From: Congeria kusceri
Lineage: Eukaryota; Mollusca; Bivalvia; Myida; Dreissenidae
NCBI GenBank assembly: GCA_027627225.1
Contig: CM051025.1
Coordinates: forward strand, 77,653,974 to 77,717,973
Direction: 5' to 3'
DNA: 64,000 bases
Shown here: positions 22,293 to 55,900 of the stretch, piece by piece
How the letters are laid out: every line of letters begins with the position of its first letter
Numbering within the stretch: the stretch's first letter is position 1
The notes under the pieces: model-generated
Seen by the model: the letters and a program-made list of their open reading frames with translations, nothing else
Databases searched by the model: none
Told to the model about the DNA's origin: nothing
Made by a program: the position numbers and the translations under genes

Positions 22293-22949
22293 ATGTTGAA
22301 TCAGGTAGTTTTTCTCATCGACACCAACGTAGATGAATGTTCTAACGATAACCCAACATCGCTGTCAAATGCTGTATGTTTGTCATGCTTACGTCTGCTC
22401 CATTTTTTGTCCTCCGAGTATGAGAAAGGAGCTCCAACAAAGACCAGTAAACTTCACCACACGAAAGTAAAATGGTCATACAAATTGTTTAACTCTAAAA
22501 ACTTTGTGTCAAAAATAGAAAATCATCGCCTGTATGATTTCAGACTTAAATATTTTGAAGAATTCGAAAATGAAGTGCAACGCAGGTTTGAAAGCAGTGC
22601 ATCAGACGGAAAAGTTCAGAGGTCAAATTCAAACATGAAAGCAGGGGATAGTCTTCATCTGGCCTTGATGCAGTTGTTGGCAGACTTTTCATGGGAAAAT
22701 CCAGACATTTCATCACCAGTAAAAGGAAGAAGGCACAGAAAGGCATCTAAACCATCCAAAAAGAATACTGTCATACTGTTTTCGAAGACTCCCAAAACAT
22801 TCACACAGTTAAAAGAGTTTGGAGGAAAACAAGTACTTGATGAAGATATTTTACTTGATATCATTCTTCCAGGAAGTTTATTTCAACAGTTTTGTGAGGT
22901 CACACGAATAAGTTTCAATTGGGTTGACACACAGCATTCTACATATTTG
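22293..22949 (+). CDS. TICRR: TICRR exon 1 (residues 1-219), N-terminal domain
   Basis: The largest coding exon of the first half. It begins MLNQVVFLIDTN, like the hydrophobic first strand VMLLLDT of vertebrate Treslin. It continues with VKWSYKLFNSKNF (vertebrate VHWAFKFFDSQ), a DFR-x-x-x-x-x-x-FEEFE motif, SWENPDISSPVKG and VTRISFNWVDTQHSTYL. The domain is von Willebrand A-like in metazoan Treslin and contributes to MTBP binding. Donor TTG|GTAAAT; a stop follows soon if unspliced. Confidence 0.92.
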
Positions 22950-34900: not shown

Positions 34901-37900
34901 TGACACGAAATATAGCTACATAGCCCATACATGATACAGGGGTTGCTATGTCTTATTTTTTCATAAATCTTGTAATTGTGTTTTTCAAAATTTCACAAAT
35001 TCTTATATGTTTCATGTAAATGTAGTAAAGTACTTATGCACTATCTTTGGTTACTCATATTTTATCATATGCAAGTTTTTTTGTCTGTGTTTACAATTGG
35101 CGCGCTATCATGACTGCCAATATAGCCAAAATTAAACACTCGCCAAAGATTGTACTGGTACAGTACACCATTATTATCCATTAAAAAATAAACACAAAAC
35201 CGGATCTCAGCTTTATTTTGCATGTACCATCTTGTTATCATTCTCTTTGACAGTTAATACCTAGTTCTTGTGTAAAGTATATATTTACCAGTATTTATCC
35301 AAAATCTTTTTTGTTAAATATATTTGTATAAAAGGTCATACCTTTCACATAATGTTGTATTATGCAGAGACATATGCCTGTCAGCTAGAGACAGTGTGCA
35401 GCCTGATGATAATTTCAGCTTCAGCGGCAAGTTTGCGGTAGGTGTTTTAGTACATGTATATTTGTTGTTTTGTTAATGGTTTCTCTAGAAAGCTCTTGCA
35501 ATACTCTTATTCGTCTGTCTGACTAAACTCTTGATGAAATGATTGTGGAATTCTCTCTTTTTTTGTTGTGAATGACTCAGTGACTGCATCAGTGAATGCA
35601 TAAATGAAGACGATTGAAAACTACAGGGTATGTTTTTTGTAAAATATTGTTTGACAAATTATTAAAACCTTTTTCTCATGTACTGCATGTTGCAGATGTA
35701 ATTGAAATTGGGTTACTGCAAAAGTTCAGTATAAATCCCTGCCAATAACTAGTAGTGAACAAGAAATGTAGAACTGTCTGTCTGTCTGTTTTAAGGGAGA
35801 TGCTCCTACAGCTCTCAGATGAGGAATCCAGTTGCCATTTTTAATGGGAATTTTACATAACATTAACATATGATCATACCCTAGCAGTTAGAAACTAGTA
35901 TATATGGTTGAGGTCAGGCTAATGCTGATGAATTTGCTTTAATAGTTATCAGATAAAATACCTATGTGCAAAGTTATTAACAGATTTGTATAAAATGTTC
36001 TGAGGTTGGAATGTTGGAAATGGACCAATGAGCAGATGTGTTTTTTTTGGGGGGGGGAGGGGGTGATCCAGATCACTGCTTGGATTTAGGAAGTTTTTAA
36101 ACAATTATTTTCTGTTGAGAGATAGGGCGAATTCCCAAATTATTGAGTATAGCTTGTGTATTTGTTGCACAAAACCTGGTGCAAATGAGCTGCCATGGTG
36201 GAGATCTGCGCTTTTCTAGCTGTTTAAATATTAATGACTTGGAGAGTTTTTACTTTTGAGAATAAAAAACAATGCTTTTTTTGCTATTCAATGAAAGCAA
36301 CTGAATGTTTGCTGAAAAATAGTCTGATCAAGGACCAAGAAATGTTGCATAAACTGTAACATTCTCAATGATATATTAAAATGTCTTTCTTGATAGGCCT
36401 ATGGCTTGATAGACCGCCAGTCAGTGAAGCACCTGCCAGTGCAGTGTAGCTGTGTTTGCGAGGCCTCCACAGGAGACGAGCGCTCTGGCAAGGTGACAGT
36501 CACCAAGGATGGGGTTTTTGAGAGACTGATAGAGAAACTGGCTAGCAGAAACTTCTGTCTGGTTAGTATGTGTATGGACAATGGGACAGTGAACTTATAA
36601 CAGGGAAAGATCCAGAGCAAAATACCATGCTGCTTTTTGTCCCCTCCTCTGCATCCCCTCTGGACTGTTCAAAAAATACTCTAGGGTATCTTTTGAACTT
36701 TAAATACATTTATTTTTGGAAATATTGAATTCCAGATGAAGAAATTTTTAAAAACCTTGAATATGGTCATATATAACAAAGATTAAAACCCTTGATAAAC
36801 TACCAAATTATTAGAAAATGCCAAAGGTCCAGCCCCACCCAAACTCCTCAATGCTTTTTTTTAGCAATGCACTGTAGCTTTTTGCATCCTAGATCTTTCC
36901 CTATTACGAGGGCTGTTCATTTAATACCCAGATGACCGCTATAACTTTTGATTGAGTAACCCAATTGTAATACAATTTGGTATAAAATGTCATATGTTTT
37001 TAATGTATTGATTGACAAAAGATGGAAAGTATCCACGCAAAAGATCAGAAATTATGGTTACTATAGCAACCCATTGACAGCCTACCCGGCCCACGCCATT
37101 TTTAGTCAACAGTAAAGTGTTTACTTTTAAAGAAATCTGGAATTTTGTTAGTTTTAAGCCGGAAAACTTTGGATGAGGTTACATATACATAGATGTTATT
37201 AAAAGCAAAAATAATGTCATTAACGAATCGCTATTGCACGTGGATAATGTTTAGCGTCAAAGTTTGCATTTGTGTTTTTTTTGCCATGGATTCTGAAAGA
37301 ATTGAAAGAAAAACAGGTTTTAATACAGTTTTGTATAAGTACTGGACATACACCATTTCAAACGATAAATTTTCTTGTGTAGTCTTTTGGGGAATCCTCG
37401 GTTAAGTGAACAACTGTTTATACATGGTATAAATGTCTTCATGGTGGCAGAGACTCAGCACACGATGATCTGAGACCTGGCCAGCCAGACATCAGAAGTC
37501 GAAAATTGCCGTTAGTGTAATAATTGTTGGACTCTGATCGTAGAATAACTACTGGAGAAATATTGCTTTTTATGATAAACAGTGGTTTTATGATGTTTTC
37601 ACCTCATGGGTGCATATACATGAGAAGTGTGTGGCGGCGTAAGGCCGATACTCCGAAAAAGAGTGACGTTTTGAGTGGACTAATGTCATAATATTTTGAC
37701 ATCGACCTGTGCTGACCCTAGTTACATGATCATGTTCAAATGTTACTTATTTGCAAACCCTTGGTCGGATCATGTTGAAATTTTGTATGTGAATACAGAA
37801 CTTTTGTACTTTTATTCCAGTCGTTTTTCATTATTATGCACCCATAACTTTTTAAGATATAGCGGTTGTCCGGGTATTAAATGAATATTATATTTTGTTT

Positions 37901-40900: not shown

Positions 40901-43900
40901 CTTAGAAATTCAGGTTAAACTTTGCGTGCAACAACTCCATATCTCTATAACTACTACAGCTATTCCATTGCAACTTAAACATGTCTTCATGGTCATTATA
41001 TAAAGTCACTGACCAAGACCCATAACTCTGACCTGCAATTTAGCAGAATTATGCCCCTTATTGTACTTAGAAATTCAGGTTAAAGTTTGCTTTCAACAAC
41101 TCCATATCTCTATAACTCTAGAACGGATTGAACTATTGTAATAAAACTTCATACATAGATACTTTATAGCGAGGCCTCACTTGGGATTGCATATAGGTGG
41201 GTGGGGTCAAGGTCAAGGTCACTGTTACTAAAAATAGAAGAACAGTTTCTGCTCAATAACTTGAGAACGCATTGAGATATTTTAATGAAACTTAATACAT
41301 AGATACCTTATATCGATACCTCGCTTTTGATTGCATATGGGATGGGTGGGGTGAAGGTCAAGGTCACTGTTACTAAAAGTAGAAAAACGGTTTCTGCTCA
41401 GTAACTTAATAACGCATTGAGATAGGTTATACATAAATACCTTATATCGAGACCTCGCTTGGGATTGCATATGGGGTGGGTGTCGTCAAGGTCACTGATA
41501 CTAAAACAGAAAAACTGTTTCTGCTCAATAACTTGTGAATGCATTGAGATATTTTAATGATACTTCATACCTAGATACCTTATATCGAGACCTCGATCGG
41601 GATTGCATATGGGGTGGGTGGGGTCAAGGTAACTGTTATTAAAAATAGAAAAACTGTTTCCGCTCAATAACTTGAGAACGCATTGAGATATTTTAATTAT
41701 ACTTCATACATAGATACCTTATATCGAGACGCCGCTTTGGATTGCATGTGGTGTGGGTGGGGTCAAGGTTACTGTTACAAAAAATAGAAAACAGTTTCCG
41801 CTCAATATTTTTCTTGTTTGTTGTTATGAAGGCCACCCATAACTCTGACAAAGCGGTTAAATAGTCGAGCGCGCTGTCCTACAGCTCTTGGATTGGAGTC
41901 CTCTCTATTGATTTTGCAATGAATTAGGTCTCCTCCAAATAAGATATTGATAAGTCAAATCTTGGTTGTGCATATTTTCAGCATTTTTTTGGGGGAAAAA
42001 TTATTACCCTGTTATGGTGAATAAATTCAGTTGTGTATACATTCTTCTTACCGGCTTTACAGATGTAAATTAAACCCGGCAGAAAATTCAGTTTCAAGAT
42101 AAGCAGCGGATATTAAGAGTCTGTGCTTTCAAACTGATTCATGACCCACTTACGTTTAAGAAAAACAATAAAAAAAATGTCCCTGTATGAGGGTGGGAAA
42201 TGTGTATGTGTAGACCTCAAGAACATCGATGTATTTGCTGTAGGTAATGCTGGAAGTGGAGAGATGGCAAACAAATTGTGAGCTTTCATGTTATGGCAGT
42301 GCATGTGGGGAATGTTTATATTGCGAGCCTCCAACAACGAGATATTTTTGCTATAGGTAATGCTGGAAGTGAGGAGAAGGCGGACAGGTTTGAGCTGCCA
42401 TTCAAGGGGAGAGCATCCAGGGCATCTCTCAGCCGGGCAGAGATGATCCTCAGCAAGAGCAGGGCCGTAGTCAAGGAGCTGGGACAGGAGAAGGAGGGAC
42501 AGGCATCAGGGGTAGACCAGTCTGACAGGGCCAGACCAGACTCTTGGGCTCACATCACAGGTGGGTGGTGTATGTTGAGAAGGAGGGACAGAGGGCTGGG
42601 GCTGACCAGCCTGACAAGGCCAGACCAGACTCTGGGGCTCACATCACAGGTGGGTGTGCTTGTTGTGATGGACAGGGGGTGGGGGCTGACCATACACTAG
42701 GGCTCACATCACATTGCTTAGGGAAAGATTTAGGATCAGAAAAGGTACATGGTGCTGCTCAAAAGAGCAGGGGGGAGGGGGCAGACCCGGCCAGACCCGT
42801 TCTTTGACCACCCCAAAGGGGCAGCAGGGGATGGGGGATAAAAAGGAGCAGTGTGCAGCACCCTGCTATTTTGCTCTCGATTTTTCCCTAATGTTGCTGG
42901 GCTGCTATTCATAAAGCTTCTTAAGGAAATATTAAGTTGCGCTTTTCAGATCAAATCTTCTATGTGAAATCCACGAGTATTTATTTACAGAAGGGTAAAG
43001 TATTAAACATCTAGCCCTGATTAGTATGTTATAACTGGATTAGCTTAAGCTTACAATTTTCATATTCCAATAAAGTTTGTGCTGAACTCTCTGTTGTATT
43101 TCAAATTCGCCAAAATCTAACTCTGGTTTCAGACTTCAACAGTGTCGAAGAGTTAAAGTCCTACCTGACCTCCGTGTATGAGAAGATCTGCTCAGGGGAA
43201 AGCAATCTGGACTCCAGTGTGCAGATGATCGTCATGGTAACACAGCATTTCATCAAGCAGACGGAAGCAGATAATGCGGAGGTATGGTGGAGGGCGTACA
43301 AGTGCTATCAACATTTGTTTTTTTTCTATCTGTTTATGTTGCTGAATATGAATGCTTGTTAAAACCACACCAACAAAACAACAACATGTAAAAAAAGATA
43401 TTCAGTTTAATGGCATGATTGTTCATTAAATATCTAAATTCACTACTGTTTTTGATCACAAAACTGCAGGTTTAACATTTTTGCTGACATCTATACAACT
43501 TGCTTGAATGGAAGTTCTGGATAAGTTGGATAAGTGTAAACTTATTCTCAAATTTCTTCCTTCTTATTTTATATAAAATAAAAATGATTATCTCAAACTT
43601 GTAGCTCAAATTTTGGTTATGTTGAAGTGGTCTCAAAATTGTTTTTATGCCCCCGGCATCTTGATGTGGTGGGCATATAGCGATTGTCCTGTCCGTCCAT
43701 CCTTCCTGTCTGTCAGTCCTTCCGTCCGTTACGAGGTTAAGTAGATTTTACCATTTCGTCTAGCACCAACACCGCTTACTACAACACTTGGATACTTACA
43801 CAGTTGTTGCATATGAGCATTCTCTATCCACCCATATCACCCAACCTCACTTTTACCTTGACCTAATTTGCACTTAGAATAATTCAGATGGGCTGTTTCT

Positions 43901-46900
43901 TGGTTAACTAGATTTTACCGTTTCGTCTAGCACCAACACTGCTTGCTACAACACTTGGATACTTACACATTTGTTGCTTATGACCATTCTCTATCCACCC
44001 ATATCACCCAACCTCACTTTGACCTTGACATTATTTGGATTCAGAAGTGTTATTTCTTGGTTAACTAGATTTTACCGTTTTGTCTTGCACGTACACCGCT
44101 TACTTTAACACTTGGAGATTTACACAGTTGTTACTTATGACCGTTCCCAGTCCACCCATATCACTCAACCTCACTTTGACCTTAACCTTGACCTAGTTTG
44201 GACTAAGAAATGGGCTATTCAGCACCAAATGGGGGCATGTGTGTTTATCAAACACATTATCTTGTTTGACACCTATTTCTTTGTGTTTGTCATGAAGTGT
44301 TGACTCCAGTGGCAAAACATATGTGACCACAGTCCAAAGTTGTCACACATTGCAAATATAGTTCATTCTTTTCACAGGATTTAGTGATAAAGCACGTCTT
44401 TCATCTGAGTGAAGGATCCTTAATTTTTTTTCAGTATATTGATGGTTCAGCGTGAAACTATTGTATCTAATATAGAAATGTGAAGAAGATACAACAGTTT
44501 CATGCTCAACCCTTTATATGCATACAGGATTGCTATTTTATAGCATGATTTATCAACCATTTTTACCCAATAGATCTAGTCTTTATTTGGATAATAAAAA
44601 GCCAAACTTCCAATATGTCAAAGTCATTTCAAATTTCCTGCGACTTTGAGAAAATGAAGTTTGGCTGAATGGCATGAATATATTCTGTATACCTATCCAT
44701 AGGAGCAGTGCACCAGCCTTCTGCAGGAGAGCTTGTTGAAGACGGGGGCCCAGTTGAGGGAGAAGTATAGTCAGACTGAGGACCTTCCAATGGATCACAA
44801 GATCACAGAGTATGTGTATTTGTGCATAAGTAGTCATTTAAGCTGCAATTTCATTCCATGAGAATTTTGTTTAGACAGTTTGTCTGTCCTAGCTCAGCAG
44901 AGCTTGATGATTTTTCAGTATATAATAAGCTTTGGGTCATGATAAAAACTTGCATTTGTGTAGATCATAAGATCTCAGAAGAAACCAATAATAGAGGTAC
45001 AGTGTGCAGGTTATAAGCCCACATTTCTGTCACATGTAGGTACCTTGTGCAGGTGATAAGCTCACATTTCTGTCACATGTAGGTACAGTGTGCAGGTGAT
45101 AAGCCCATATTTCTGTCACATGTAGTTACGGTGTGCAGGTGATAAGCCCATATGTCTGTCACATGTAGGTACAGTGTGCAGGTGATAAGCCCATATTTCT
45201 TCCACATATAGGTACAGTGTGCAGGTGATAAGTCCATATTTCTGTCGCATGTAGGTACCTGTAGGTACAGTGTGCAGGTGATAAGCCCACATTTCTGTCG
45301 CATGTAGGTACAGTGTGCAGGTGATAAGCCCATATTTCTGTCACATGTAGTTACAGTGTGCATGTGATAAGCCCATATGTCTGTCACATGTAGGTACAGT
45401 GTGCAGGTGATAAGCCCATATTTCTTCCACATGTAGGTACAGTGTGCAGGTGATAAGTCCATATTTCTGTCGCATGTAGGTACCTGTAGGTACAGTGTGC
45501 AGGTGATAAGCCCACATTTCTGTCGCATGTAGGTACAGTGTGCAGGCAATAAGCCCATATTTCTGTCACATGTAGGTACCTGTATGTACAGTGTGCAGGT
45601 GATAAGCCCACATTTCTGTCACATGTAGGTACCTGTCGGTACAGTGTGCACGTGATAAGTCCATATTTCTGTCACATGTAGGTACAGTGTGCAGGTGATA
45701 AGCCCACATTTCTGTCACATGTAGGTATGTGTAGTTATAGTGTGCAGGTCATAAGCCCACATTTTTGTCACAAGTATGTACCTGTAGGTGCAGGTGATAA
45801 GCCCATATTTCTGTCACATGTAAGTACATTGTGAAGGTGATGAGCCTATATTTCTGTCACATGTAGGTACAGTGTGCAGGTGATAAGCCCCCATTTCTGT
45901 CACATGTAGCTACAGTGTGCAGGTGATAAGCCCATATTTCTGTCACATGTAGGCACACTGTGCAGGTGGTGAGCCCACATGTCTGTCACATGTAGGTACA
46001 TGTAGTTACAGTGTGCAGGTGATAAGCCCACATTTCTTTCACATGTAAGTACAGTGTGCAGGTGATGAGCCCATATATCTGTCACATGTAGGTACCTGTA
46101 GATACAGTGTGCAGGTGATAAGCCCACATTTCTGTCACATGTAGGTACCTGTAGGTACAGTGTGCAGGTGATAAGTCCATATTTCTGTCACATATAGGTA
46201 CAGTGTGCAGGTGATAAGCCCACATTTCTGTCACATGTAGGTACGTGTAGTTATAGTGTGCAGGTGATAAGCCCACATTTTTGACACAAGTATGTACCTG
46301 TAGGTACAGTGTGCAGGTGATAAGCCCATATTTCTGTCACATGTAAGTACATTGTGCAGGTGATGAGCCTATATTTCTGTCACATGTAGGTACCTGTAGG
46401 TACAGTGTGCAGGTGATAAGCCCACATTTCTGTCACATGTAGGTACAGTGTGCAGGTGATAAGCCCATATTTCTGTCACATGTAGGCACAGTGTGCAGGT
46501 GATGAGCCCACATGTCTGTCACATGTAGCTACGTGTAGTTACAGTGTGCAGGTGATAAGCCCACATTTCTTTCACATGTAAGTACAGTGTGCTGGTGATG
46601 AGCCCATATATCTGTCACATGTAGGGTACCTGTAGGTACAGTGTGCAGGTGATAAGCCCACATTTATGTCACATTTAGGTACAGTGTGCAGGTGATAAGC
46701 CCACATTTCTGTCACATTTAGGTACAGTGTGCAGGTGATAAGCCCACATTTCTGTCACATTTAGGTAAAGTGTGCAGGTGATAAGTCCACATTTCTGTCA
46801 CATGTAGGTACAGTGTGCATGTGATAAGCCCACATATCTGTCACATGTAGGTACCTGTAGGTCCAGTGTGCAGGTGATAAGCCAATATTTATGTCACATG

Positions 46901-49900
46901 TAGGTTCAGTGTGCAGGTGGTAAGCCCATATTTCTGTCACATGTAGATACTGTGTGCAGGTGATAAGTCCATATTTCTGTTGCACGTAGGTATATTGTTC
47001 AGGTGATAAGCCCATATTTCTTTCACATGTAGGTACCTGTAGATACAATGTGCAGGTGATAAGTCTACATTTCTGTCACATGTAGGTACAGTGTGAAGGT
47101 GATAAGCCCACATTTCTGTAGATACAGTTTGCAGGAGATTAGCCCATCTTTCTGTCACATGTAGGTACATTGTGCAGGTGATAAGTTCACATTTCTGTCA
47201 CATGTGGGTACAATGTGCAGGTGATAAGTCCACATTTCTGTCACCTGTAGGTACAGTGTGCAAGTGATTAACCCATATTTTTGTCACATGTAGGTACAGA
47301 GTTGAGGTAATAAGCCCTTGTTTCTGTCACATGTAGGTACGTGTAGTTACAGTGTGCAGGTGATAAGCCCACATTTTTGTCACAAATATGTACCTGTAGG
47401 TACAGTGTGCAGGTGATAAGCTCATATTTCTGTCACATGTAAGTACATTGTGCAGGTGATGAGCCCATATTTCTGTCACATGTAGGTACCTGTAGGTACA
47501 GTGTGCAGGTGATAAGCCCACATTTCTGTCACATGTAGGTACCTGTAGGTAAGTGTGCAGGTGATAAGCCCATATTTCTGTCACATGTAAGTACAGTGTG
47601 CAGGTGATAAGCCCACATGTCTGTCACATGTAGGTACGTGTAGTTACAGTGTGCAGGTGATAAGCCCACATTTCTTTCACATGTAAGTACAGTGTGCAGG
47701 TGATGAGCCCATATTTCTGTCACTTGTAGGTACCTGTAGGTACAGTGTGCAGGTGATAAGCCCACATTTCTGTCACATTTAGGTACAGTGTGCAGGTGAT
47801 AAGCCCACATTTCTGTCACATTTAGGTACAGTGTGCAGGTGATAAGCTCACATTTCTGTCACATGTAGGTACAGTGTGCATGTGATAAGCCCACATTTCT
47901 GTCACATGTAGGTACCTGTAGGTCCAGTGTGCAGGTGATAAGCCAATATTCTAGGTTCAGTGTGCAGGTGGTAAGCCCATATTTCTGTCACATGTAGATA
48001 CAGTGTGCAGGTGATAAGTCCATATTTCTGTTGCATGTAGGTATATTGTTCAGGTGATAAGCCCATATTTCTGTCGCATGTAGGTATTGTTGAGGTGATT
48101 ATCCCATAGTTCTTCACATGTAGGTACCTGTAGATACAATGTGCAGGTGATAAGTCTACATTTCTGTCACATGTAGGTACAGTGTGAACTTGATAAGCCC
48201 ACATTTCTGTAGGTACAGTTTGCAGGAGATTAGCCTATCTTTCTGTCACATGTAGGTACAGTGTGCAGGTGATAAGTGCACATTTCTGTCAAATGTGGGT
48301 ACAATGTGCAGGTGATAAGTCCACATTTTCTGTCACCTGTAGGTACAGTGTGCAAGTGATTAACCCATATTTTTGTCACATGTAGGTACAGAGTTGAGGT
48401 AATAAGCCCTTGTTTCTGTCACATGTAGGTACGTGTAGTTACAGTGTGCAGGTGATAAGCTCACATTTTTGTCACAAGTATGTACCTGTAGGTACAGTGT
48501 GCAGGTGATAAGCCCATTTCTGTCACATGTAAGTACATTGTGCAGGTGATGAGCCCACATTTCAGTCACATGTAGGTACCTGTAGGTACAGTGTGCAGGT
48601 GATAAGCCCACATTTCTGTCACATGTAGGTACCTGTAGGTAAGTGTGCAGGTGATAAGCCCATATTTCTGTCACATGTAAGTACAGTGTGCAGGTGATAA
48701 GCCCACATGTCTGTCACATGTAGGTACGTGTGGTTACAGTGTGCAGGTGATAAGCCCACATTTCTTTCACATGTAAGTACAGTGTGCAGATAATGAGCCC
48801 ATATTTCTGTCACATGTAGATACCTGTAGGTACAGTGTGCAGGTGATAAGCCCACATTTCTGTCACATTTAGGTACAGTGTGCAGGTGATAAGCCCACAT
48901 TTCTGTCACATTTAGGTACAGTGTGCAGGTGATAAGCTCACATTTCTGTCACATGTAGGTACAGTGTGCATGTGATAAGCCCACATTTCTGTCACATGTG
49001 GGTACCTGTAGGTACAGTGTGTAAGTGATAAGCCAATATTTCTGTCACATGTTGGTTCAGTGTGCAGGTGGTAAGCCCATATTTCTGTCACATGTAGATA
49101 CAGTGTGCAGGTGATAAGTCCATATTTCTGTTGCATGTAGGTATATTGTTCAGGTGATTAGCCCATATTTCTGTTGCATGTAGGTATATTGTTGAGGTGA
49201 TTAGCCCATATTTCTGTCACATGTAGGTACCTGTAGGTACAGTGTGCAGGTGATAAGCCCACATTTCTGTAGGTACAGTTTGCAGGAGATTAGCCCATCT
49301 TTCTGTCACATGTATGTTCAGTGTGCAGGTGATAAGTGCACATTTCTGCCACATGTGGGTACAATGTGCAGGTGATAAGTCCACATTTTTGTCACCTGTA
49401 GGTACAGCGTGCAAGTGATTAACCCATATTTTTGTCACATGTAGGTACAGAGTTCAGGTAATAAGCCCTTGTTTCTGTCACTTGTAGATACAGTGTGCAG
49501 GTGATGTTGAGAATGGAGATGATGTCTTCACTGGAGAACAAGGACCAAGAAGAAGGGGAGGAGGCAGTCAATGATGAGGTCTGATACCAATACTGCAACA
49601 GTGTCATTTATTTTTATATAATTCTCGCACGTGTGGTAAATTGTAGTTCTGAAATATATTTTATATAATTCTCGCACGTGTGGTAAATTGTAGTTCTGAA
49701 ATATATTCTACATGTTGCGCATCTTTTTTGTAAAATGTTCCAATTGTTTCTTCAAACAGATAACAATGGTGCACACACCAAAGTTAATATGTGTCAACAA
49801 AAAGTATTTCATGTGCCATAATTTAACTGTATTCAATTTATTCAGACTATACCCAATACAAGAAATTCCAGTAAAAAACCAAATCATTTTAAGGTTTTAG

Positions 49901-52900
49901 TGTCTTTGTTATCAGAATATTTATTTTAGAAACTGTATTAGGCTTGTACTTGTAGAAGAATCAGAAACTAGCATATTTATTTACAATCCTTAGCCTGGTG
50001 TTTCCCTCTAGTTAACATCCACATGCTTTATTTAACTGAACAGTTTAAGTTCACCATTTCTATTTCTGGAAAACATTGTATTTCATTGCAGATTGTTGGG
50101 TTGCTGAGGACCCTCTCCTTCATATCAGGACCGGATGTTCTCAACAAGTTCATGGAGTCTTCCCTGCTTAACAAGTATGCCTTTCACAACTTATCTAACA
50201 CTGAAAGCCTCCAAATCCTCAACGGTCAAAAAATATTTGAAGCCGGTCATGGGCACACCAGGCTTAATGCATGTGCGTACTGTCTTCCCTGATTAGCCTG
50301 TGCAGTCCGCATAGGCTAATCCAGGACAGCACTTTCCGCCTCCAGTGGATTGTTGTTTAGAAGAGACTTCCTTAAAACAGAAAATACCATAAAAGCGGAA
50401 AGTGCTAATCAGGGACAACACTTCACGCGCATGCATTAAGCCCAGTTTTCCCATGACACACCTCATTTTTCCTTTGTACAACGTGAACTATTGAATAAAA
50501 CAATGTCACTTGTTGTGACACTACAATAGATTTAACAACATTTTTTAATCCACAAAAATATTGTCGACCATGTAAATGATTTATCAGTGTAGATCTGAAT
50601 AGTGTTAAACCATACTGAACTGTCTGAATCTGAAAACGTGTATTACATGGTGTCTTTTATAGCATGTTAGGTTACTTTAGTCATCATTTATGGGTACTGA
50701 CGTTAAACAACCAACATATTTGGATATTTTCCACTAAATCAAGGTTTTAATTCCTAGTCAAGGTCGGTCGCACTGTCAATAAATATACAATTTCTGAAAT
50801 TTTCAATTATGTATACAAATTGTTTTTCAGTATGGTTAGGCATTTGATATGTTTTTGTCAGTATATATTTCGATTGTTCATACACAAAACAATTTTTGTT
50901 ATTTTCAAAATGTGTTGATTCAAAGAAACCATGTGCCTTTAATATAACAACTGTTTAACCAAAAATAAAACTGCTATTAGACTTGTAGTACCAGACAGGA
51001 ACTTAACAAAACCAATTAGAAAGCCTTTCAAGTATTAGCGTTAGGAGATGTCCATCCTTGGATAATAATCAAATTATTGTGAGATATAATAATATTAATC
51101 TCTGTTGAAGGGATTCACTGTCTGTAGTGCTTAAAAGTATATTTGCTCACAGGCATTGGAACACAAATATCTTTTATGTTGATATTTCTTTTTTACATCT
51201 ACACAATACAATAAATGGCATAATTCCTGTTGTATTATTTGCTCTTCTTCATTTTAACGAATAAATAGGCTATATAATAGAATAATAAGAAACAAACTGC
51301 ATAAGCAATGCATATTTTACGAATTTAAAAAGTGTCATATAACCTTTGGCGACTTTCACACATAAAATATTTATGTTAATCCACTAAAATATTAAATCTG
51401 AACTCTCATTATTTTGAAATTTTCTGCTTCAAAATAATGGTGTTTGAATGTGGTTTGTTGTTATAAAACATCTTTCAGGTTTCCATTTTACATTTGAGGC
51501 TTATCGTGAGAAACCTTGGGCTTAATGCACGGGCTGATCTGGGATGACACATTCTGCTTACAGTGGATTTATGTTTAAAAGAGACGTCATTGAAACAGAA
51601 AATAACATACAAGTGGAAAGTGTCGTCCTGGATTAGCCTGTGCAGACTGCAGATGCATTAAGCCTGGGTTTCCCACAACACGCCTTAAATATATCATCTT
51701 ATTGCTGTTCAGTTACATCCACAGCATCCCACGAACTCTCGCAAACATATATGACGAGCTCATGCAGCCACTGCCCGATGCCCTGGCAACGCTGCTCTCC
51801 CCCGAAAACAACAGTGCCGTGGACCAGTCAGCTCTCGACGTGTCCATGCAGGGAACCGAGAGTGTTGGCGGACCTCCCTCCACAAGGACTAGGTCACATG
51901 GGTCAGTGGGTCCACTCTCGAATCAGCCTGGGTCCAATATGTCTACCTCACAGCTGGATATCTCCACTTCAAGGTCCAGGTATTCAGTGATTTGAACTTT
52001 CTTGTGTCTGTTTGTGTTAACCGTGCTGCTTTGTTGTGTAATTTGTACAAAATTACACTGCCAAAACATCAACGTATCAAGTGGTGTAAAACTTTGGGCT
52101 GCGTTAACCATACTGCTTATTTTTCTGTTTGTATCTTCTCTTATAGGTCCAGGTATCAAGTGGTTTCAACTTTTGTGTGTGCGTTAAGTGTACTGCTTAT
52201 GTGTTTGATTATTGACATGTATGTCATTTCTCAGGCTATTAACCAAATTACTTTAGAAGCTGTGGAGTGATAGCCCATGATTTATCTGACATTGGCTTTT
52301 TTTGCCCGTTTCAGCTCCACAAGTCCCCCAGTTTTCATCACATCTTCACCAAAGTTGATATTTTAAAGACAAAACTGAATGGGGATACATGTTTTCAAAC
52401 AGCTCTTGCGATTTTTTGTGTGTAAAGTAAACATACATCAAGAATTCATGATCTGACGTCTGAGGGTTTTTAATTTTCGATTCAGGGGTAGTCGTAAACT
52501 TTTGCACCATCCAAGCCTGGCTGACTTTGGTGCCAAAAGACAAATTGTGGTACAGAAGGTTGTTAAAGAGAAGGTATTGTATTTGTAACTGTCTGAATTA
52601 GTTTGCAATATTTTCTAAATTCCCTTTCAGGGGGATATTGATGTTAAAGTAATATTTAAATAAATTAATAAACAGTATTGGTTCTCTTTAACTGTTCATT
52701 TTATCTTTGCTAAAATGTTTGTATCATCCAATTATTATCAGTTAATTACACAATTATTATCAAGGAAGTTTGAATTAAGTGGCTGAGCAATCCAATCATT
52801 GTCAATAGTTATCTACTGCCATCATACATGTATGTTAGCCAAGTATGTACTAATGCTTGCCATGCATGTAGATATTTGTGTTAAAGGAATGTTTGTAGTA

Positions 52901-55900
52901 TTAGAAAAATAATGACAATGTTTTATGAAAAGTTTTGTACGAAGTAGTCCTGTGGCAGTATGTAAAGATATTTTTGCTTTCCTTTTTCAATTTCTAAGTT
53001 TTTAATTAAGCTCTTAATGTGTTTTCTTGAATATTTAGGTGCTTTCCTTTTTCAGACTGGTAAAAGTTCAAAGAAAAGTAAAGATCCACACAAAAGGTCC
53101 AAGGACAAAGGTTTGATATTTTTACCTTCATCATCATTGTAAAAAGGTATTCACATACAACTGTATACTATATCATTTTGCTAAGAAATATCCTTTAATA
53201 AAGAATTATGCATACTTTGCATGAATTTGTATTTGATGTTCTATACAAATCCTTCACTTTTTTTTCAAATACAACTGTATACTACATCATTTTGCTAAGA
53301 AATATCCTGTAGTAAAGAATTATGCATACTTTGCATGAATTTGTATTTGATGTGCTAAACAAATCCTTCAAAGTTTCGGTCTCTTAAACCAAATATTAAG
53401 TAGTTTTATGCAGATTATGCACTGTCTGGCACCAGCAGTTAGCTTCATGAATGCTGTTTTTAGTTGCCAAGGTGTTGTTTGACCATCGGGGAGGCGTTAA
53501 GCTGGAGCGTCGCCAGTCTGTGGCCGTGATGCAGCGGACGTGTAAGACACCCAAGAAAACAAGCAGAAAGTCTCCAAGAAAGCTGCTGAAAAGCCCAAGA
53601 TGTGAGTGATTTCACACAAATATCATTGATGTACAAATTGTTCAGATTTGTGTTTGTTCACACACACCGCTTTATTTGAAAGAAAATAAAAATAAGCTTT
53701 TAGCCCCTGAAATGTTCAAAATGTGAGTGACTTCATGCTTAGGTCATTGATGTACTTACTTATTAGGGCTGCAACAACATAGCAAAAACTGTATTGCAGT
53801 ATATTGCTGTAAGCAAAATTCACATTGCAATATATTGCTGTAAGCAAAATTCACATTGCAATATATTGCTGTAAGCAAAAATCACATTGCAATATATTGT
53901 TGTAAGCAAAAATCATATTGAAATATATTGCTGTAAGCAAAAATCACATTGCAATATATTGCTGTAAGCAAAAATCATATTGAAATATATTGCTGTAAGC
54001 AAAAATCACATTGCAATATATTGCAATATATTGTAAAACACAAATTATAAAAGATGAGATAGCATTCTCGATTTTACATAATTGAGTATCAATTTGGACC
54101 AATACATAGAATATATCGAGTGACATACCAAACCTTTTTTCTTGTTTATCCAAAACAAAATCAAAATGCCCATTTAATTCTAGTCCAGCTAGTTTGTTTT
54201 AATGTAACAATTGACATGAGAAGGCTTGGTTCCTTTTTTACTAAATTCTTAGTTGTAAAGTACTGGGCATAGAGACAACGTTTACAAGTAATTATATTGA
54301 AATTTATAACGTGGCAATATATAACCATGACCAAAGTCATATTGCAATACACTGAGGAAAACGCGTATTGCATACAATACAATATATTGGAGTATTGTTG
54401 CAGCCTTAGCAATTATCAAAGCATATTAAGTAAATGTTACCCAAATATTTAACCAGTCAAACTACCATTTTATGCACCAATACTGAAGATCATTTTCAAT
54501 ACCTTGCTTTCATGAACAAATAAAATTGTTGTTATCAGCTACCTGTAAAGTCAGTATGATGGTGAAACATATGAAACCATAATGTAAACGTTAAAGTTTC
54601 TCGCCATTTACAGATGGAATTTCCCCGAGAAAGAAGCTGGTAGCAGATACGCCATCTCACAGACTTGTGTCCAGTGTCCTGCAGGGAAGAGAGGCCCGCA
54701 AGAGACACCTCAGCAGCACAGCAGTGATAGCTGAGTCTCCGGTGAAATCTTGTGGTGAGTGAAAACACACTTTATCCCATCTTCTTGCTGGCATTGACAA
54801 AATAACATCCCCTGGAATAAATTGAGCTGTATATTCACAAAGTGAGATACTGTATAGCAAACACAGGCAGTGTAATGACGTCATTGTTGATTTTCATGCC
54901 ATCACCTTTTTCATGTTATTTTAGTTTTTTTTCTTTTGTTTATTTTTGAAATAAAGATACAAATGATGGAATAAATAGAATACTAGGTACTTGTTTATTA
55001 AAAATAAATGAATTGGCTCGACATGAAAAAATGAACCACTGGCCAAGGCTCTTGGTACATGTTTACTAAGCCTCCCTAAGTTAACCTTTATTCAACACTT
55101 ACCTAGTATTCTGTATGTCTGCGCTTTTGTATGTTATTGCTCAAGGAGTATGAAAGTCCTTATTTTCAGACGTACTCTGAACTTAATGTATTGACTAATG
55201 AAATGTGTGTTTCATATAATCCTTGATTTTGTTTTAGATAATTATATTTAAAGACGTTCACAACATTTTTTCCTAAATTTTTTCCAACTTCAGATTTTCT
55301 TAAAAATTTGCACAAACATGTGTCAATGTATCCTTAAACTAAAACAGTCTTAAAAAATAAGGGTCACCGGCCTTGTTCCGGAAATATTGGGATTTAAAAA
55401 CGGTACCTGTTGAAGCCTTTTTTTCAGTTTGTGTGACTAGCAATGTTCAGTTATATAAAGCGTTCATATTAAAACAAGGACGGAGATTTTTAAATGCATC
55501 GTTTATTGCTCACCTGAGAACGAAGTGCTTGGTGAGCTGTTGGTGTAGGGGACCTCTCCTGCGTCGTCCGTATTCAACAATTTGGCCCGTTATCGCGATA
55601 AAGACTACATTTTTATTCAATCTTGACCAAACTTGCACAGTTTGTGTATAACCATAAAATCTTGGACAGGTGCGATAATGGGCCCGATCGGACCAGGAAC
55701 GCCAGAGTTATTGTCCCTGTTTTGGTCCCAAATACATTATTCCCGAATAAATCACCTGGTAAAGGGAGATAAATGAACTATAAGGAAGATAATTGCCAAC
55801 AATGTGTTATTTCCCTTTGTAGCTCATTCACTGATATAACCCAGATAGTGGAGTAATCTTATCAGTAAAATAATTGCATCACTCTGAGTCAGCATGATAT

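Follow-up and report, generated by a model that had tools for sequence, protein, structure and literature searches.

A minisatellite of about 4.5 kb, assembled from copies of the gene's own splice junction, lies in an intron of the Treslin (TICRR) gene of the bivalve Congeria kusceri, within a 64,000-nucleotide stretch of contig CM051025.1 (assembly GCA_027627225.1, positions 77,653,974 to 77,717,973, hereafter the window). The array sits between coding exons 11 and 12, and its final unit continues into exon 12. We favor, with a probability of about 0.72, the reading that the array is a 'mirage', a set of tandem intron-exon boundary copies spread by recombination, in which the last acceptor would be chosen by exon definition. 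Judged by its sequence, it belongs to a kind of element already described, standing out by copy number, unit length, taxon, and gene.

Tandem Repeats Finder reproduced the boundaries proposed in the initial annotation exactly (44995-49505, period 43, 98.5 copies, 75% matches), and the observation of a splice-junction minisatellite was confirmed. The unit spans the splice junction, taking in 25 bases from the intron end and 18 from the exon start, in agreement with the proposed origin from the gene's own 3' splice site and first 18 coding bases, while the unit length given earlier (34 bases) is replaced by 43 or 53 bp. A search allowing up to 4 edits recovered 95 acceptor cores, arranged head-to-tail in a single orientation, and the final core ends at 49487, the real acceptor; the array does reach up to the real exon with the authentic site last. 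Of the 94 core-to-core intervals, 57 measured 43 bp, 25 measured 53 bp, and 12 had other lengths, the 53-bp form carrying roughly 10 additional bp (GTACCTGTAG or similar) that bring a second AG. The consensus of the 94 copies reads AAGCCCACATTTCTGTCACATGTAG on the intron side and GTACAGTGTGCAGGTGAT on the exon side. The real junction departs from it at 5/43 positions, namely 4 of the 25 in the intron and 1 of the 18 in the exon. Decoys are approximately 83% identical to the real junction and 85% identical to one another, and the similarity of the best decoy to the real junction stops at exon base 18.

Matching of the unit to the exon edge, set beforehand as one test of the proposed origin, was far above chance. 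A 31-base junction pattern with no more than 3 mismatches was found 52 times in the window, always within 45027-49505 and with the real junction as the final match, versus 0 matches in 100 dinucleotide shuffles; the best of 5000 random 43-mers from the first 44 kb reached 49% identity to the real junction. No exact copy of the 34-base unit was found in viral contigs, a search from which records of the window's own genome may be excluded. On the minus strand the array is open for 181 codons (45073-45618), which is probably a mechanical by-product of the repeat.

Table 1. Coordinates of the array, its flanking exons, and other duplicated splice junctions in the window.
Feature	Position	Strand	Details
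Coding exon 11 (upstream splice partner)	44703..44809	+	tblastn of treslin proteins; donor AGA/GTATGT
Minisatellite array	44995..49505	+	94 decoy copies plus the real junction as final unit; unit 43 or 53 bp
Higher-order repeat	46103..49493	+	aligns to 44998-48391; lag 1105; 87.8% identity; 3485 columns
Decoy with the CCCTTG intron variant of the real acceptor	48404..48428	+	about one higher-order period upstream
300-bp stretch	48516..48815	+	98% identical to 47426-47725; lag 1090
Real intron end, last 25 bases	49463..49487	+	tblastn of treslin proteins; acceptor ...CTTGTAG
Coding exon 12, first 18 bases (part recurring in the unit)	49488..49505	+	conserved Treslin_STD columns
Coding exon 12, remainder	49506..49578	+	73% purine; two GARGAR enhancer-like hexamers
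Exon 9 acceptor region, one duplicate	42193-42289 and 42305-42401		78% over 95 bp; AG/GT at copied junction
Exon 9 donor region, one duplicate	42488-42567 and 42577-42656		88% over 80 bp
Exon 14 donor region, one copy downstream	51959-52043 and 52132-52210		76%
Exon 17 donor region, one weak copy downstream	53581-53634 and 53702-53755		76%

The host gene was assigned to Treslin, on the plus strand and with most of its length inside the window, by collinearity with annotated treslin proteins: the main tblastn matches of Dreissena polymorpha treslin follow one another collinearly, residue 1 lying at 22293 and residue 1226 (of 1691) at 64000. This protein was also the nearest one found (79% identity, 98% of the queried part covered), followed by that of Mya arenaria (60% identity), in keeping with a dreissenid other than D. 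polymorpha as the probable source of the window. The presence of a Sld3-Treslin domain, noted earlier, was borne out by a score of 125 bits for the assembled domain (STD) against Pfam PF21855 (Treslin_STD), the curated cut-off being 24.2. The domain construct used for the nearest-protein search, the homologue alignment, and the structure search was four residues short at the joint of exons 13 and 14; these residues were restored after the homologue alignment and before scoring and masking with Treslin_STD. The structure search, with the construct four residues short, returned no solved-structure relative at E up to 1. Exons 11 and 12 join in frame at the real acceptor, giving ...KITE/YSVQVM, and coding exon 12 spans 49488-49578. 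It is the 12th coding block mapped by homology to D. polymorpha treslin; the earlier labels intron 12 and exon 13 were right that the array abuts a coding exon, while the number 13 would need a further, unmapped exon.

The exon edge is ancient coding sequence that served as the source of the array. Together with the split codon, the first 18 exon bases encode E-YSVQVM. In an alignment of 12 rows, consisting of the window translation and 11 homologues (including ten mollusc sequences, two of these Mya models), all 12 rows have the Q of YSVQVM and 11 have the Y; both Mya arenaria models are identical at six of six residues and D. polymorpha at five. No insertion is present at the start of exon 12 in the window translation relative to the 11 homologues. 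Masking YSVQVM lowers the Treslin_STD score by 9.1 bits and deleting it by 18.2, versus 3.9 and 6.5 bits for masking two other stretches. Conserved Treslin_STD columns together with the protein identity in M. arenaria support copying from exon edge to array. At exon position 1 the consensus has G and the real exon A, a synonymous difference (GAG/GAA) that does not reveal which base was copied.

Expansion of the array left a higher-order structure with a period of about 1.1 kb. Among lags of 1-59 units, mean identity was highest at lag 22 (0.882, versus approximately 0.85 at lags 1-5), and the 300-bp stretch at lag 1090 is a recent block duplication inside the array. In the single haplotype analyzed, such block duplications are an indirect hint of length instability. 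The TTG at -19 to -17 of the real unit recurs in just 2 of 94 decoys, at 48404-48428 and at 47312-47336, the latter a second CCCTTG variant lying about two periods upstream of the real acceptor. The higher-order repeat and the distribution of this variant argue that the exchanged blocks carried a copy of the unit at the real junction. The expansion would be explained most simply by unequal exchange or by slippage of blocks, and the repeated unequal exchange suggested at the outset is, from the 1.1-kb repeat, its likeliest cause.

Cores ending in AG numbered 75 of 95 including the real one (20 of 95 lack it), leaving 74 decoys with AG rather than the hundred or so polypyrimidine-AG sites first reported; in at least one of the 74 (47127) the match is shifted and the AG non-homologous. 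In all, 391 AG dinucleotides precede the real one within the array, and every one would give a premature stop if used, 390 of them inside the extension and one by a frame shift leading to a stop in exon 12. For the 74 core decoys the stop follows at 43 nt in 39 cases and at 10 nt in 24; it is TAG in 67 and coincides with the end of a later core in 44. Among the acceptors tried, solely the authentic one is predicted to yield the conserved protein. Its tract also has the highest pyrimidine count of the 75 (13 of 17, reached by 0 of 74 decoys). Purine-rich GARGAR-type motifs act as splicing enhancers; two are found in the body of exon 12 and none in the array. After base 18 the exon body is 73% purine, while any 73-nt window of the array has at most 59%, and such a purine-rich body lies directly downstream of the real acceptor only.

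Our preferred account would begin with tandem duplication of the 25 last intron and 18 first exon 12 bases at the Treslin junction. Unequal exchange or slippage would then have expanded the array, first by 43-bp units and later by blocks of about 1.1 kb that included the real-junction unit; the repeat structure is directly visible, and from it we infer the process and its order. The array would be tolerated if splicing joins exon 11 to the last unit, exon definition selecting that acceptor by the adjoining purine-rich exon body and real donor and by the most pyrimidines in its tract. Premature stops lead to nonsense-mediated decay, which would presumably be the fate of transcripts using an upstream AG, such that mis-splicing would waste RNA and produce no aberrant full-length protein.

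Several observations weigh against this account. The decoys nearest the exon are not the most junction-like, with a mean identity to the real junction of 85% for the first 22 (the first kilobase) and 81% for the last 10 (the last half kilobase), a trend unpredicted by simple outward copying; later block exchange within the array can explain the low identity near the exon. A premature stop is expected by chance in long extensions, and the stops are therefore a consequence and no evidence of design. An unbroken pyrimidine run longer than the 5 of the real site is present in 7 of 74 decoys, and a position matrix from the 11 other acceptors of the gene places the real site 65th of 75; the acceptor's own sequence does not clearly favor it. 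Lastly, 152 9-mers of the array are donor-like at 7/9 or more, while exon 12's own donor reaches just 5/9, suggesting that pseudo-exons are possible.

These same sites form the basis of a different view, in which the array serves as a regulatory brake: during transcription of the 4.5 kb the real site would face competition from decoy acceptors and donors, and unit number would set the share of productive Treslin RNA (poison splicing). The 74 decoy acceptors and 152 donor-like sites ahead of the real acceptor are consistent with such a role, as is the premature stop behind every array AG, which in 63 of 74 core decoys follows after exactly 10 or 43 nt. We nevertheless consider it unlikely, since there is no sign of selection keeping the decoy AGs: 84% of units have the consensus G at -1, which puts this column among those less conserved. 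There is no clear retention or clearance of decoy AGs, and the blocks make the units non-independent. Amphioxus mirages, moreover, are reported to splice normally (PMC3087553, PMC3902484).

Slightly less probable again is that the unit number is partly an assembly artefact, from misjoined haplotypes or expanded blocks such as the one repeated at 98% with lag 1090. According to its authors, an amphioxus mirage was aberrantly assembled in the draft genome (PMC3087553). For the Treslin array, the identity of 87.8% over the whole higher-order alignment is lower than would be expected if a duplicated read or a haplotype join were mainly responsible, and an artefact would alter the count and not the nature of the array. 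A specific role for the count, with decoy copy number as a length-variable rheostat by which more copies cause more Treslin pre-mRNA to be lost to decoy splicing and decay, we regard as very unlikely; if true, an intronic minisatellite would tune, from one individual or species to another, the amount of a factor that is rate-limiting for replication-origin firing.

Hardly any probability attaches to the reverse direction, in which the array came first and the 3' splice site of the exon shifted into it, making the first six codons repeat-derived. That the real junction resembles any other unit (about 83% against 85% among decoys) is in keeping with it, but the six residues occupy conserved Treslin_STD positions identical in Mya, and the translation shows no insertion at the site relative to the 11 homologues. 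Equally improbable is that hairpins hide the decoy AGs and exempt the real site through an A-to-T change at -6. In its favor, AGGU can occupy the loop of a hairpin formed by the 26-nt core, and an open G is predicted in the real AG (0.999 unpaired), a state shared by only 2 of 74 decoys. Against it, folding of the consensus unit does not surpass that of shuffles (z 0.37 for 49 nt, z -0.46 for 26 nt), 79 of 94 decoys fold less well than the real site, and the real site's A is predicted to be paired (0.01 unpaired versus a decoy mean of 0.48), such that folding overall does not separate decoys from the real site.

Duplication directed to splice sites in general was also considered and rejected. 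The scan covered 34 junction windows (18 acceptors and 16 donors, the unplaced donors of exons 3 and 4 being excluded), with approximate placement for the acceptors of exons 7, 8, 15, and 17-19 and the donors of exons 5, 6, 8, 11, 16, and 18, and possibly others; a copy was called at a score of at least 20, and comparison windows straddling exon edges were excluded. Copies were called at 4 of 34 junctions, the exon 12 array junction included, versus 34 of 553 windows outside exons and listed arrays (Fisher p = 0.27). Windows touching listed arrays, the exon 12 array among them, scored in 164 of 176 cases; together with the non-array windows this gives 198 of 729 (p = 0.048, in the direction of fewer copies at junctions). 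Exon interiors scored in 1 of 53. Junctions are not special in this gene, and local tandem duplication is common in its introns.

Single extra copies (76-88%, 54-95 bp) are present at the exon 9 acceptor, the exon 9 donor, the exon 14 donor, and, more weakly, the exon 17 donor (Table 1). The last scored 16.5 (shuffle maximum 14.0), below the threshold of 20, as did the exon 16 acceptor, where the match is confined to 15 bases of pyrimidine tract (15.0 against a shuffle maximum of 13.0). A likeness to the end of exon 11 near 44963 was discarded as chance (12.0 versus a shuffle maximum of 14.5). The intronic copy at the exon 9 donor has a 24-residue translation 75% identical to D. polymorpha treslin. 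Just 3' of exon 12, a perfect 47-bp tandem duplication occupies 49612-49707, and by eye 50240-50460 and 51600-51690 look like one dispersed repeat (TTAGCCTGTGCAG), the second stretch stopping shortly before the exon 14 acceptor. A weak plus-strand Pfam match near 37320, in the intron that precedes exon 6, is to the Mos1 transposase HTH domain (16.8 bits against a cut-off of 24.1) and is perhaps a mariner relic. No known RNA family reached the gathering threshold in the window.

The array offers a natural experiment on how the spliceosome picks one acceptor among dozens of near-identical ones, in a gene where any decoy use would cut a conserved domain, and on how intron-exon edges may seed minisatellites. 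By the title of a 1995 paper (NAR), a minisatellite in human IFI6 (6-16) provides multiple splice donor sites. Its units are reportedly short; there, as in the Treslin array, an exon-edge minisatellite multiplies a splice signal, but reportedly on the donor side. Closer parallels are the mirages of amphioxus, described as tandem copies of intron-exon boundaries with decoy acceptors (PMC3087553, PMC3902484). The globin gene BflGb6 has minisatellite-like copies of an intron 3' end with the 5' part of the next exon, and BflGb9 has copies of an exon 3' boundary; many copies carry AG/GT signals, unit number depends on haplotype, concerted evolution occurs within the cluster, and splicing was regular by reverse-transcription polymerase chain reaction (PMC3087553). 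Mirages of Branchiostoma Adh3 (Canestro 2002) are recounted in the same source and concern another phylum and another gene. In lancelet PGBD5, a 60-bp repeat and a 108-bp triplication lie over splice sites in far fewer copies than in the Treslin array, and the authors hold splicing to be undisturbed (PMC3902484, where troponin C mirages are also named). Partial searching of the open-access literature found no bivalve case; as far as that literature shows, the phenomenon is here extended beyond cephalochordates and to about 94 copies. The Treslin array has the sequence features of a mirage, namely a unit spanning the junction, head-to-tail order ending in the functional junction, and retention of AG/GT. 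Like the BflGb6 mirage, it consists of tandem copies of an intron end and exon start, many keeping AG/GT; unlike BflGb6, for which PMC3087553 gives haplotypes with 6 and 3 units of 150-160 bp, it comprises 94 decoys of 43 or 53 bp, organized in blocks of about 1.1 kb within a bivalve replication gene.

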